Shown here piece by piece: positions 29,919 to 32,548 of a stretch of DNA of 33,483 nucleotides. Positions within the stretch are counted from its first letter, which is position 1; each line of letters opens with the position of its first letter. The stretch covers positions 1 to 33,483 of the IMG/VR virus record IMGVR_UViG_3300028735_000021; one strand, 5' to 3'. The DNA comes from a virus. The position numbers and the translations under genes are program-made. The notes beneath the pieces are model-generated. The model made no database searches. It was not told the origin of the DNA and saw only the letters and a list, made by a program, of their open reading frames with translations.

Positions 29919-30848
29919 TCAACACAGACGCCAGTTATCCGCGGGGCTGGCGTTTTTTTGGGCCCGTTCCAGGTCTACCTCAGCCAGGCGAACGTAAAGA
30001 CGCACGGTATCAAGGCGTGCATGGCCGAGCATCTCCTGAAGCTCCAGTGGATTGCCACCATTACGTAGGAAGGCGATGGCGAAGGTGTGGCGAAAGCGGT
30101 GTGGGTGAACGTCCTTCACGCCGGCGCGCTGACCGAGACGCACCAGCATTTTGCGTACGTCGTCGCGATCTAACGGCTTGCCGGTCGCAGTTGCGAAGAG
30201 CGGTTGATCCTCTGTTGTCTGCCCTCTCTCTGCCAGGTATTTCCAGATGGCCTGGCGCGTGGCATTGCCGACGAAGACGATCCTCTCTTTGTCCCCCTTG
30301 CCGTGCTTGATCCTCACCTGGCCACGGCGCCGGTCGTAGTCGCCGATCTTGAGGTTGACGAGTTCACTGACGCGGACGCCGGAGTCTACGAGCATGAGGA
30401 TGATGGCGCGATCACGTGTTGCCGTGGGACGACGGCTGCGGATGGATTTCGACCAGCGGCGATCCCAGGCCGCCGTGTGCGCGCACGCGTCCAGGAGGGC
30501 GCGGATTTCGTCCTGGGTGAACGGCGTGATCTGGGGGCGATGGTAGCGGGGCGATCGGACTTTGTGGCGGATGATGTGGGGGACGCCGGCGTGCCGTTCG
30601 AGCCAGGTCCAGAAGGAGGAGAGGGCGATGAGGTGATTGATGACGGTTTTCTTGGACAGGTGGAGGTCTTCGGTGAGGTGGTTGAGGAAGCGTTCGATGT
30701 CGTTGCTGGTGATGGCTTCCACCTCGATGGTAGGTCCGACGAACTGGGTGAAGCGTTCCAGGGATAGTCGGTAGTCTCTTTCCGTGTTGGGGCTGATCGT
30801 GCGCGCTTTGGCGAGCCAGTAGCCGTCGAGGGCGTAGTCCAGTTGCAT
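29919..30848 (-). CDS. int: Tyrosine-type phage integrase
   Basis: This 309-aa protein starts at the minus-strand ATG whose complement ends at 30848, after GGAGG. The N-terminal SAM-like core-binding domain spans about residues 1-90. The catalytic domain has all the expected residues: R159 (DSGVRVSEL), K184 (KHGKGDKER), H250-x-x-R253 (HPHRFRHTF), H276 (MLGHARL) and the nucleophile Y285 (RLYVRL). It catalyses site-specific recombination at the attachment site next to it. The protein lacks a large arm-binding domain, like the XerC/D size class. The gene is transcribed against the late operon. No excisionase gene was identified with certainty. Confidence 0.93.
   Translation of the reverse strand: MQLDYALDGYWLAKARTISPNTERDYRLSLERFTQFVGPTIEVEAITSNDIERFLNHLTEDLHLSKKTVINHLIALSSFWTWLERHAGVPHIIRHKVRSPRYHRPQITPFTQDEIRALLDACAHTAAWDRRWSKSIRSRRPTATRDRAIILMLVDSGVRVSELVNLKIGDYDRRRGQVRIKHGKGDKERIVFVGNATRQAIWKYLAERGQTTEDQPLFATATGKPLDRDDVRKMLVRLGQRAGVKDVHPHRFRHTFAIAFLRNGGNPLELQEMLGHARLDTVRLYVRLAEVDLERAQKNASPADNWRLC
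29928..29959 (+). terminator. Late operon Rho-independent terminator
   Basis: ACGCCAG (29928-29934) pairs with CTGGCGT (29947-29953), with a 12-base loop, followed by a run of seven T (29953-29959). It terminates the plus-strand late operon and lies within the 3' end of the convergent integrase gene. No T-run exists in the other direction, so it should not terminate the integrase transcript. Confidence 0.8.
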
Positions 30849-30930
30849 GGGGCCTCCGGGGCTGTGTCAAATTCTTAACACTCCGCCCGTGAGGCCTCCG
30901 GTTTTGTCGCGATTGGGGAGGAACAGCCTT

Positions 30931-30993
30931 CAGGGAATCAGGAACCCCACGGACTGCATACACACACCGCCCGTGGGGTTCCTGATATCCCTG
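30931..30993. repeat. 22-bp imperfect inverted repeat between integrase and attachment site
   Basis: The arms 30931-30952 and 30971-30993 are inverted copies (core ATCAGGAACCCCACGG and CCGTGGGGTTCCTGAT) with one bulged base, separated by 18 bases. No T-run follows. It could be an arm-type binding region for integrase or an accessory factor, or an RNA hairpin limiting transcription across the attachment site. Confidence 0.85.
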
Positions 30994-31002
30994 ACGCTGA
31001 TC

Positions 31003-31052
31003 TGGTGGGCGATTAGGGACTCGAACCCAAGACCTCACGGATGTGAACCGTG
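31003..31052 (-). other. attP: Attachment site core: 3' half of a tRNA-Val(CAC) gene
   Basis: Read on the minus strand, this 50-base segment is the 3' part of a tRNA: anticodon arm CACGG-TTCACAT-CCGTG (anticodon CAC, Val), a 5-base variable loop, a T arm with TTCGAGT, the acceptor strand ATCGCCC and an encoded ACCA. The 5' half is absent: no D arm or matching GGGCGAT is found upstream on that strand. The site lies next to the integrase. Phages often carry a tRNA 3' end as attachment core so that integration restores the host gene. This is a phage-type (attP-like) or tandem-prophage junction site, since phage regulatory genes follow directly. Confidence 0.75.
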
Positions 31053-31075
31053 CTGGCAGCAGGCATGATCGCGGT

Positions 31076-31108
31076 CCTCACGGTACAGGCTTCCGGCGAA
31101 CCGTGAGG
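31076..31108. repeat. CCTCACGGT/ACCGTGAGG inverted repeat beside the attachment site
   Basis: CCTCACGGT (31076-31084) and ACCGTGAGG (31100-31108) form a 9-bp inverted repeat with a 15-base loop. The same 8-mer, CCTCACGG or its complement CCGTGAGG, also occurs at 30887-30894 and 31033-31040. Four copies within 225 bp on both sides of the tRNA fragment suggest integrase or excisionase binding sites. Confidence 0.65.
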
Positions 31109-31133
31109 GCTGCAGTCTAGCCCTCCGTGGTGG

Positions 31134-31178
31134 TTGCGCCGGCGGCAACGGGGCGTGCTATAATTAGAACACTTGTTC
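31134..31178 (+). promoter_or_regulatory. Promoter overlapped by a LexA-type SOS box
   Basis: A TATAAT -10 element at 31159-31164, with a possible TTGCGC -35 at 31134-31139 (19-base spacer), overlaps the dyad GAAC-ACTT-GTTC at 31167-31178. This matches the Gram-positive-type SOS box GAAC-N4-GTTC. Flanking arms GTGCTATA (31155-31162) and TATAGCAC extend the symmetry with a small bulge. LexA binding would block initiation of the 56-codon gene beginning at 31199. Confidence 0.65.
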
Positions 31179-31198
31179 TATAGCACGGAGGTTCTCCT

Positions 31199-31369
31199 AT
31201 GTCCCGCCGCCGGCGGCGCTGCCATGCCTACGAAATTGCTGCCTATCGGCAGTTGTCGCCGCCGCGCCAGGTTCGTTTCTTAGACTGGCTGCGACGAGTG
31301 TTAGCGGCGTGGCTGGGACAGCCAGGCAGGCGGACGCGCACGCGCCCGAAGTTGCGCGTGCTGAGGTAG
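31199..31369 (+). CDS. SOS-box-controlled Arg-rich small protein (56 aa), antirepressor candidate
   Basis: ATG 31199 follows GGAGG (31187-31191) at ideal spacing. The protein starts MSRRRRRCHAYEIAAYRQ, has an amphipathic helix (RFLDWLRRVLAAWLG) and a basic tail (RRTRTRPKLRVLR), so it is very basic. It converges on the repressor gene: its stop lies ten bases before the repressor stop. It is preceded by the LexA-type box. The repressor lacks a self-cleavage domain, so this gene is a good candidate for a damage-induced antirepressor, like Tum of phage 186, or its transcript may interfere by antisense. Coding is supported by the binding site and frame, not by homology. Confidence 0.5.
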   Translation: MSRRRRRCHAYEIAAYRQLSPPRQVRFLDWLRRVLAAWLGQPGRRTRTRPKLRVLR

Positions 31370-31379
31370 GTTTCGGTTT

Positions 31380-31892
31380 CTATCCTGCTTTTCGTTCCTC
31401 TTCCCACTGTTCGGCGAGCAATTGAGCCAGGTAGTTGCGCGCCTGGACGCGCAACGGCTCCGGCAACTGGTCGAGCAGTTCCACCAGTTCGTCTTCACGC
31501 GCCTGCTGTTCGGCATCCTCTGCCTCACGGCCCGCATGCAGCGCCTCCACGGCGTCGAGGATGCCGGTGAAGCCTTCGAGCAGCGACCGCCGATCTTCCT
31601 CTGCAAGATCAGATAAACGCAAGGCCAACTCGTACACGTCCGGGGGGATGCCACGACCAGAAGCACGAGGCTGAGGGTCGTCAACAAGACCAAGAAGGTA
31701 GTCAGTACTTGTGTCAAGAGCAACAGCAATTTTGGCTATCACAGCACTACTGATGTTGTCTCTGATTCCAGCCTCAATCATCGACAAGTACCCCTGGGTA
31801 GTTTGGGCAAGTGATGCCAAAGTACCCTGAGATAGCCCTCGCTTTTCCCTCAGGTGCTTGATACGACTTGCCACAAGACTGGTCTCGCTCAC
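31380..31892 (-). CDS. XRE/CI-type lysogeny repressor without self-cleavage domain
   Basis: I choose the minus-strand GTG at 31892 (170 aa). The longer TTG start at 31910 would place the first codons inside the -10 promoter box. A helix-turn-helix lies at about residues 20-42 (LSQGTLASLAQTTQGYLSMI), followed by an XRE-type helix (AKIAVALDTSTDYLLGL). The C-terminal half is acidic and helical (EEDRRSLLEGFTGILDA), suited to dimerisation. No LexA-like S24 protease motif is present. It is divergent from the Cro-like gene at 32021, with a shared control region. It probably represses the early promoter and keeps the phage dormant. Confidence 0.78.
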   Translation of the reverse strand: MSETSLVASRIKHLREKRGLSQGTLASLAQTTQGYLSMIEAGIRDNISSAVIAKIAVALDTSTDYLLGLVDDPQPRASGRGIPPDVYELALRLSDLAEEDRRSLLEGFTGILDAVEALHAGREAEDAEQQAREDELVELLDQLPEPLRVQARNYLAQLLAEQWEEERKAG

Positions 31893-31898
31893 ATCCGA

Positions 31899-31904
31899 AT
31901 TATA
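31899..31904 (-). promoter_or_regulatory. Repressor -10 box directing a probable leaderless mRNA
   Basis: On the minus strand a perfect TATAAT lies six bases before the GTG start of the repressor, so transcription should begin at or next to the start codon. No Shine-Dalgarno sequence can fit. This mirrors the leaderless cI transcript of lambda made from PRM. The -35 region is weak, which suggests activation or low basal expression. Confidence 0.6.
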
Positions 31905-31911
31905 ACACAAG

Positions 31912-32012
31912 TTATTAGCGCGTGCATTGCGGTCAGAATTTTTAAGGTTCTACCTCTTGACAAATTCAATTACCATTGTTATTATTAGCAGAGAAAAATA
32001 ACATTAGTAATG
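31912..32012. promoter_or_regulatory. Candidate operator elements in the repressor/Cro control region
   Basis: TTATTAGC occurs at 31912-31919 and 31982-31989, and the related perfect palindrome CATTA-G-TAATG lies at 32002-32012. The first is just upstream of the repressor promoter, the second overlaps the -10 box of the Cro-side promoter, and the palindrome lies in its early transcribed region. Their placement is what is expected of repressor or Cro operators; binding is not shown. Confidence 0.5.
31957..31985 (+). promoter_or_regulatory. Near-consensus sigma70 promoter for the Cro-like and early genes
   Basis: TTGACA at 31957-31962 and TATTAT at 31980-31985 are separated by exactly 17 bases. 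It is the strongest promoter I see in the window and points to the Cro-like gene at 32021 and the early genes beyond. It lies in the region between the divergent repressor and Cro-like genes, so it is the natural target for repression. Confidence 0.88.
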
Positions 32013-32020
32013 AGGTTAAC

Positions 32021-32287
32021 ATGACCAAACAACTGCGAGACTGGATGCAAGCACATCACATGTCGCAGACACAATTGGCAAACAGGATGGGGGTCACGCA
32101 GGCCTACATCTCAAGCATCTTGTCTGGTAACCGCATAATAACTCCAGGTTTCATTGGCCGCTTTGCCCAAGCCTTCGGCTTCGACGTAGCCGCCGAGGTG
32201 TTCGGCGGTGCCGGGGGCAAGGGGAACGGCGATGATGTGCAGTCCGACGTTGCGGAGCGCCCTGCTGTCTGCGAATTGTGTGCGTGA
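32021..32287 (+). CDS. Cro-like XRE regulator (88 aa)
   Basis: ATG 32021 follows GAGG in the leader of the strong promoter; an upstream in-frame start would begin at the -10 region. The helix-turn-helix covers about residues 10-38 (MSQTQLANRMGVTQAYISSI, then LSGNR). A further helix (FIGRFAQAFGFDVA) and an acidic, Gly-rich tail follow. The protein is small and divergent to the repressor, as Cro proteins are. It would bind the shared operators and push the switch to lytic growth (inference). The tail after residue 63 is longer than usual for Cro and looks disordered. Confidence 0.75.
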   Translation: MTKQLRDWMQAHHMSQTQLANRMGVTQAYISSILSGNRIITPGFIGRFAQAFGFDVAAEVFGGAGGKGNGDDVQSDVAERPAVCELCA

Positions 32288-32548
32288 TAGGAAGATGCTG
32301 GCACGCGTTGGCACATTCCACTGATGATCCTGGCAGCCGCCGGTGCGTGCGATAGGGGACTGCCGCAGGACAGCAGGGCGTTCCGGAGCGCCGAGACATG
32401 GGCCGGTCGGAGGCGGGACCGACCGGAGGCGCTTCCCCTCCTTGCACCCCGGCCCGTGTGGCTCCCCCGCCAGGGGTCGAGCCCGGGCCGGGCGATTCAA
32501 CCCAAGCGTAACCCGTAGCTGCTGACCTGTCACAAAGAGGAGGTGAAC
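32288..32548 (+). other. Structured GC-rich non-coding leader before the early genes
   Basis: I found no convincing gene in these 261 bases. It contains a perfect 8-bp hairpin, CCGGTCGG (32403-32410) and CCGACCGG (32419-32426), and GGAGG/CCTCC arms at 32425-32429 and 32437-32441. A long-range inverted repeat joins 32258-32269 in the Cro-like gene (CGCCCTGCTGTC) with 32369-32380. It ends in a strong AAAGAGGAGG site for the next gene. It may be an RNA leader for antitermination or mRNA stability. Confidence 0.5.

Follow-up and report, generated by a model that had tools for sequence, protein, structure and literature searches.

A putative LexA-controlled antirepressor gene beside a repressor lacking an S24 domain in a probable Anaerolineae phage

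The right end of the phage genome and its probable host

The sequence analyzed here (hereafter the window) is a viral record of 33,483 bases representing a temperate tailed phage that encodes terminase, portal, capsid and tape-measure proteins. At its right end, the order is integrase, attachment site (attP), a 56-codon open reading frame (ORF), repressor, Cro-like gene and further small genes (Table 1). The attP site abuts the putative promoter of the 56-aa gene, a position that the preliminary description of this DNA does not mention. Repeats of the CCGTGAGG type resembling integrase arm sites lie on both sides of the tRNA-Val core (30887–31130), and similar repeats surround the core in L143.

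Table 1 Features at the right end of the window. Positions refer to the window.
Feature	Position	Strand	Basis or remark
Tyrosine integrase	29919–30848	-	Phage_integrase 3e-37; 72% identical to L108 integrase
attP core = 3' half of tRNA-Val(CAC)	31003–31052	-	Alignment with L108 attL
Extended −10 element TGCTATAAT	31156–31164	+	Sequence; putative promoter element
LexA (SOS) box	31165–31180		Core GAACACTTGTTC at 31167–31178; matrix score 19.3
Ribosome binding site GGAGG	31187–31191	+	7 nt before ATG; sequence
56-aa basic protein, proposed SOS-controlled antirepressor	31199–31369	+	Same arrangement in six other phages
Phage repressor, HTH_3, without S24 peptidase domain	31380–31910	-	Pfam
Repressor operator candidate ATAACACAAGTTAT	31902–31915		One of three ATWACNNNNGTWAT sites
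Promoter of cro-like gene, TTGACA-17-TATTAT	31957–31985	+	11/12 consensus positions
Repressor operator candidate ATTACCATTGTTAT	31969–31982		One of three ATWACNNNNGTWAT sites
Repressor operator candidate ATAACATTAGTAAT	31998–32011		One of three ATWACNNNNGTWAT sites
Cro-like HTH gene, divergent from repressor	32021–32287	+	Pfam HTH_3 4e-11

The host is probably a bacterium of the class Anaerolineae (Chloroflexota), since the integrase and the attP core match a contig of an Anaerolineae metagenome-assembled genome (L108), in which the related integrase lies beside an intact tRNA-Val(CAC) gene, and since the same integrase type is found beside tRNA genes in other Anaerolineae genomes. An exact tRNA-Val attB gave no match in the genome contigs, and the attB search of class genomes returned three matches with three mismatches each, so that the exact host was not found. 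LexA scored above the family cut-off in 137 of the 150 Anaerolineae genomes searched. Five genomes of the class (L183, L184, L187, L195 and L196) carry two to three LexA homologues, often adjacent, with multiple GAACN4GTTC boxes between and before them.

The LexA-type box, the small gene and the repressor

Upstream of the 56-aa gene, a 16-bp palindrome with a single central mismatch, TAGAACACTTGTTCTA, encloses the only exact GAACN4GTTC of the window (0.39 expected); taken alone, this short motif is weak evidence for a LexA box. The same motif was present in 31 of the 33 Anaerolineae lexA loci read, where its usual form is TTGACA-TAGAACNNNNGTTC-TATAAT, i.e. inside the promoter of lexA itself. 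A matrix built from 30 Anaerolineae lexA-promoter boxes, with training sites scoring 14.4–23.3, assigned 19.3 to the window site (31164–31181) and 9.9 to the runner-up in the window, and a score of 19.3 was reached in one of 200 shuffled windows. By this measure, the box fits the LexA box of the probable host class, and host LexA would be expected to occupy it. A Dehalococcoides LexA reportedly uses the Gram-positive box; the Anaerolineae data stand without this report.

The box starts right after the extended −10 element, and bound LexA would therefore cover the transcription start. A good −35 element was not found for the 56-aa gene, with only a weak one upstream of TGCTATAAT, and a promoter scan of the region reported the cro promoter alone. 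The preliminary description had proposed a LexA-type box over a TATAAT promoter and LexA control of the small gene; the former is borne out by the box and the adjoining extended −10, and the latter is supported by the host-class matrix.

The 56-codon ORF has a good ribosome binding site, as described before, and its product has a pI of 12. Its codon score is the highest of the six frames, yet low, falling below ~97% of real-gene chunks and above 98% of off-frame chunks. Searches of Pfam and PHROG with the protein gave no family match, including none to Tum/DinI or other described antirepressors, and a homologue search of viral contigs found none; in the whole records of related phages, two weak matches appeared, neither at a repressor. 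In 396 class genomes, the best matches all fell within the same segment of a HAD-type hydrolase of the host and were judged to be chance, because they represent a single conserved gene of the host and the E-value is modest for a search of 396 genomes. The predicted structure comprises two helices, and its quality (pLDDT 66, pTM 0.31) did not suffice for a fold search. Against the PDB, profile matches were limited to a designed coiled coil and to a subunit of a V-ATPase, neither of which is meaningful.

The repressor gene is convergent to the 56-aa gene at a distance of 10 bp, and a search of the region, including the DNA after the 56-aa ORF, yielded no intrinsic terminator. The true start of the repressor is probably GTG 31892 rather than TTG 31910. 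In agreement with the earlier claim that the repressor lacks an S24 domain, Pfam detected HTH families only, and no Peptidase_S24, in the window repressor (HTH_3) and in nine related repressors. When the repressor was used as a single query, the search of viral contigs returned nothing, whereas an alignment of repressors did find relatives.

The gap between repressor and cro contains three copies of ATWACNNNNGTWAT, a motif found nowhere else in the window (0.01 expected), and this position suggests that they are the operators of the repressor. Their spacing, AAC-N4-GTT, is that of the LexA box, yet T takes the place of the G in the box, and none of them scores above −0.4 with the LexA matrix. 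The LexA box and the ATWACNNNNGTWAT candidate operators are two separate motifs.

Occurrence of the arrangement in related phages

We collected 80 viral contigs that carry this type of integrase. A repressor without S24 on the strand of the integrase, together with a LexA box and, after it, a small basic ORF on the opposite strand, was found in L370 (71 aa), L371 (57 aa), L377/L211 (60 aa), L382 (62 aa), L403 (45 aa) and L202 (60 aa), the last of which was located through the repressor; all six have this integrase type. The combination of a presumably host-LexA-controlled gene and an S24-less repressor, first noted in the window, is therefore kept in six other phages, making seven in all. The box core lies 16–29 nt before the start codon in all seven, and the small proteins have pI values of 11.1–12.0. 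Each carries three to five Lys/Arg at residues 2–9, with four to five in six members; at least four are reached by 3.8% of comparable ORFs, and L371, which came to light in a search for basic N-termini, is not independent evidence for this trait. The pattern Y..[ED]I....L.P..Q is common to several of the proteins.

Six of the seven small ORFs are convergent to the repressor gene: four overlap its 3' end by 95–116 bp, and two stop 11 and 36 bp short of it by the script's count. In L377, two genes intervene between the small ORF and the repressor. In general, the small gene remains next to the repressor, whereas attP lies at a variable distance from the small gene, from ~0.1 to 1.8 kb (0.6–1.8 kb in the relatives).

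Across 14 comparable phages, the interval between repressor and integrase contained nine exact boxes in 21.9 kb against 0.31 expected (maximum of three in 1000 resamplings), an enrichment that is descriptive and no clean test, as boxes in some of the phages were already known when the interval was defined. Outside the interval, six boxes were present in 166 kb. The exact box is absent from the interval in five of the 14, and in L375 and L376 it occurs without a convincing small ORF. No further members were found at prophage ends in Anaerolineae host genomes, and a scan of viral contigs for strong LexA promoters yielded mostly unrelated genes.

The small proteins proved difficult to relate to each other. 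Pfam and PHROG gave insignificant matches only for the six analogues of the window protein, and BLASTP of the window protein against those of L211 and L202 gave nothing. Leave-one-out profiles ranked the members among ~24,000 ORFs at 2 (L211), 3 (window), 7 (L382), 9 (L370), 46 (L202) and 1842 (L403); in a shuffle test of the window–L211 pair, the score was reached by one of 5000 shuffles. We treat the proteins as one functional set, for which the sequence signal of common ancestry is weak. The smORFs of Silpe et al. are likewise alike in logic and not in sequence (PMC10432266).

LexA boxes also precede recombination genes elsewhere. In five other phages of this integrase type (L389:279, L399:1450, L401:5952, L394:5266 and L413:91), a strong box (14.4–23.4) lies 31–72 nt before the integrase start, which suggests SOS control of the integrase. 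In the unrelated viral contigs L302, L319 and L287, a strong LexA promoter precedes an excisionase-like HTH gene of 57–66 aa.

A proposed SOS switch and its alternatives

The best reading of the locus, which we consider rather likely, is that SOS induces the prophage by way of a LexA-controlled antirepressor. In the lysogenic state, LexA of the host would occupy the box and block transcription of the 56-aa gene, and the S24-less repressor, bound to its three putative operators, would keep cro and the early genes off. Upon DNA damage, activated RecA would promote self-cleavage of LexA, and the 56-aa basic protein would be made, bind the repressor and disable it, whereupon the early (cro) promoter would fire. 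We infer that LexA occupies the box, that damage induces the gene, that the ORF is translated and, most of all, that its product contacts the repressor. We favor antirepression because the box fits that of the host class, the repressor lacks S24, the operators are separate from the box and the layout is kept in seven phages. Several observations speak against it, namely the weak similarity between members, the marginal codon score of the window ORF, the five of 14 phages without a box, the box without a convincing ORF in L375/L376, and the small ORF of L377, which lies two genes from the repressor.

In an extended form of this proposal, to which we give a small though appreciable chance, the switch would have two arms: one SOS transcript would encode the antirepressor and also run antisense into the 3' end of the repressor gene, stopping new repressor synthesis. 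If true, existing repressor would be removed and new synthesis shut off at the same time, and the overlap would be a trait kept in this group of Chloroflexota phages.

The convergent layout in six of seven phages, the overlaps of 95–116 bp in four of them and the failure to find a terminator after the window ORF could also mean that the transcript alone acts, by entering the repressor gene and pairing with its mRNA or blocking polymerase, with the peptide being incidental or secondary. We regard this as unlikely. The common basic N-terminus falls outside the overlap (at least four Lys/Arg in six members), the start codons keep a constant distance from the box, and in L377 the ORF is not adjacent to the repressor; moreover, reduced synthesis alone would leave existing repressor in place, and in the Gifsy prophages of Salmonella the effect of a frameshift of one base indicated that the active agent is the protein and not the RNA (PMC3121763). 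The position of the promoter next to attP, seen in the window only, could point instead to recombination. Excisionases are small and basic, and an SOS-controlled one (a recombination directionality factor) would direct the integrase to excise the prophage; the LexA boxes directly before int in five phages of this integrase type and before excisionase-like HTH genes in unrelated phages agree with such a role. However, Pfam and PHROG detected a known excisionase domain in no member, and the place beside attP and int is not conserved, as other genes lie between attP and the small gene in the relatives. An excisionase is improbable because the gene tracks the repressor and not attP.

SOS-controlled cargo genes are known in phages, and the small protein might act on another target, as a cell-division or host-takeover factor or as a DNA-binding helper. 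The L377 protein, with its hydrophobic C-terminus and its gene within a run of other genes, would suit this role, whereas the conserved placement beside an S24-less repressor, which needs some route of inactivation, argues against it, and we consider it quite improbable. Finally, the palindrome could be due to chance, as 0.39 bare motifs are expected per window, or could be an operator of the phage repressor, with which it shares the AAC-N4-GTT spacing, and the ORF could be spurious. Against this stand the second base of each half-site, which is G in the box and T in the candidate operators, the mismatch to ATWACNNNNGTWAT, the LexA matrix score and the recurrence of the box in relatives; on the score and the mismatch, we rejected the box as a chance or operator site, and this last alternative is very improbable.

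The logic of the antirepressor switch itself has precedents. In the Gifsy prophages, the small antirepressors GftA, GfoA and GfhA are controlled by LexA, the repressor remains uncleaved on induction, and the antirepressor alone triggers induction; LexA-controlled antirepressors are also found in phages 186 (Tum) and N15 (AntC) (PMC3121763). The window resembles Gifsy in having a small protein under a LexA box and, from sequence alone, a repressor without S24. It differs in that the Gifsy antirepressor operon lies far from the immunity region and here the gene is mostly tail-to-tail with the repressor, in the lack of a family match, and in host phylum and LexA box. The likeness to Tum and AntC is the proposed LexA control of an antirepressor, but Tum has 146 aa with a DinI-like half (PMC3121763), compared to 56 aa without Pfam or PHROG match in the window. 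Consequently, the earlier proposal of a new type holds for the protein set and not for the logic, which is known from these phages; what may be novel is the protein set, the host phylum and the tail-to-tail layout.

Tiny proteins without detectable homologues also inactivate the repressor in the TF/smORF lysis modules of linear plasmid-like phages; there, however, they are driven by a phage transcription factor independently of SOS and act on autoproteolytic cI (PMC10432266), in contrast to the proposed control by host LexA and an S24-less repressor here. GIL01, a temperate phage of Bacillus thuringiensis, resembles the window in that its switch depends on host LexA and a box of the Gram-positive type, but LexA itself represses the phage promoter (PMC4551915), whereas here it would control an antirepressor gene. 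Our literature searches, which covered open-licence papers, found no account of SOS-controlled prophages in Chloroflexota. The data suggest that antirepression under SOS control occurs in this phylum as well, with undescribed tiny basic proteins. A host LexA box together with a small basic ORF that converges on a repressor without S24 forms a simple signature by which prophages inducible by damage could be predicted in uncultured bacteria, and the question of protein versus antisense becomes directly testable.

One further relative, L003, resembles the window in its repressor (~40% identity) and its cro. The L003 repressor gene continues in frame into the C-terminal half of an integrase (L003:1476–2363), and the N-terminal part of the integrase, attP and the small gene are missing; either a deletion or an error of assembly may account for this fusion. 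A stretch of the window at 32149–32454, which spans the end of the cro-like gene and the non-coding region behind it, is 91% identical to L003 and far more conserved than the surrounding genes.
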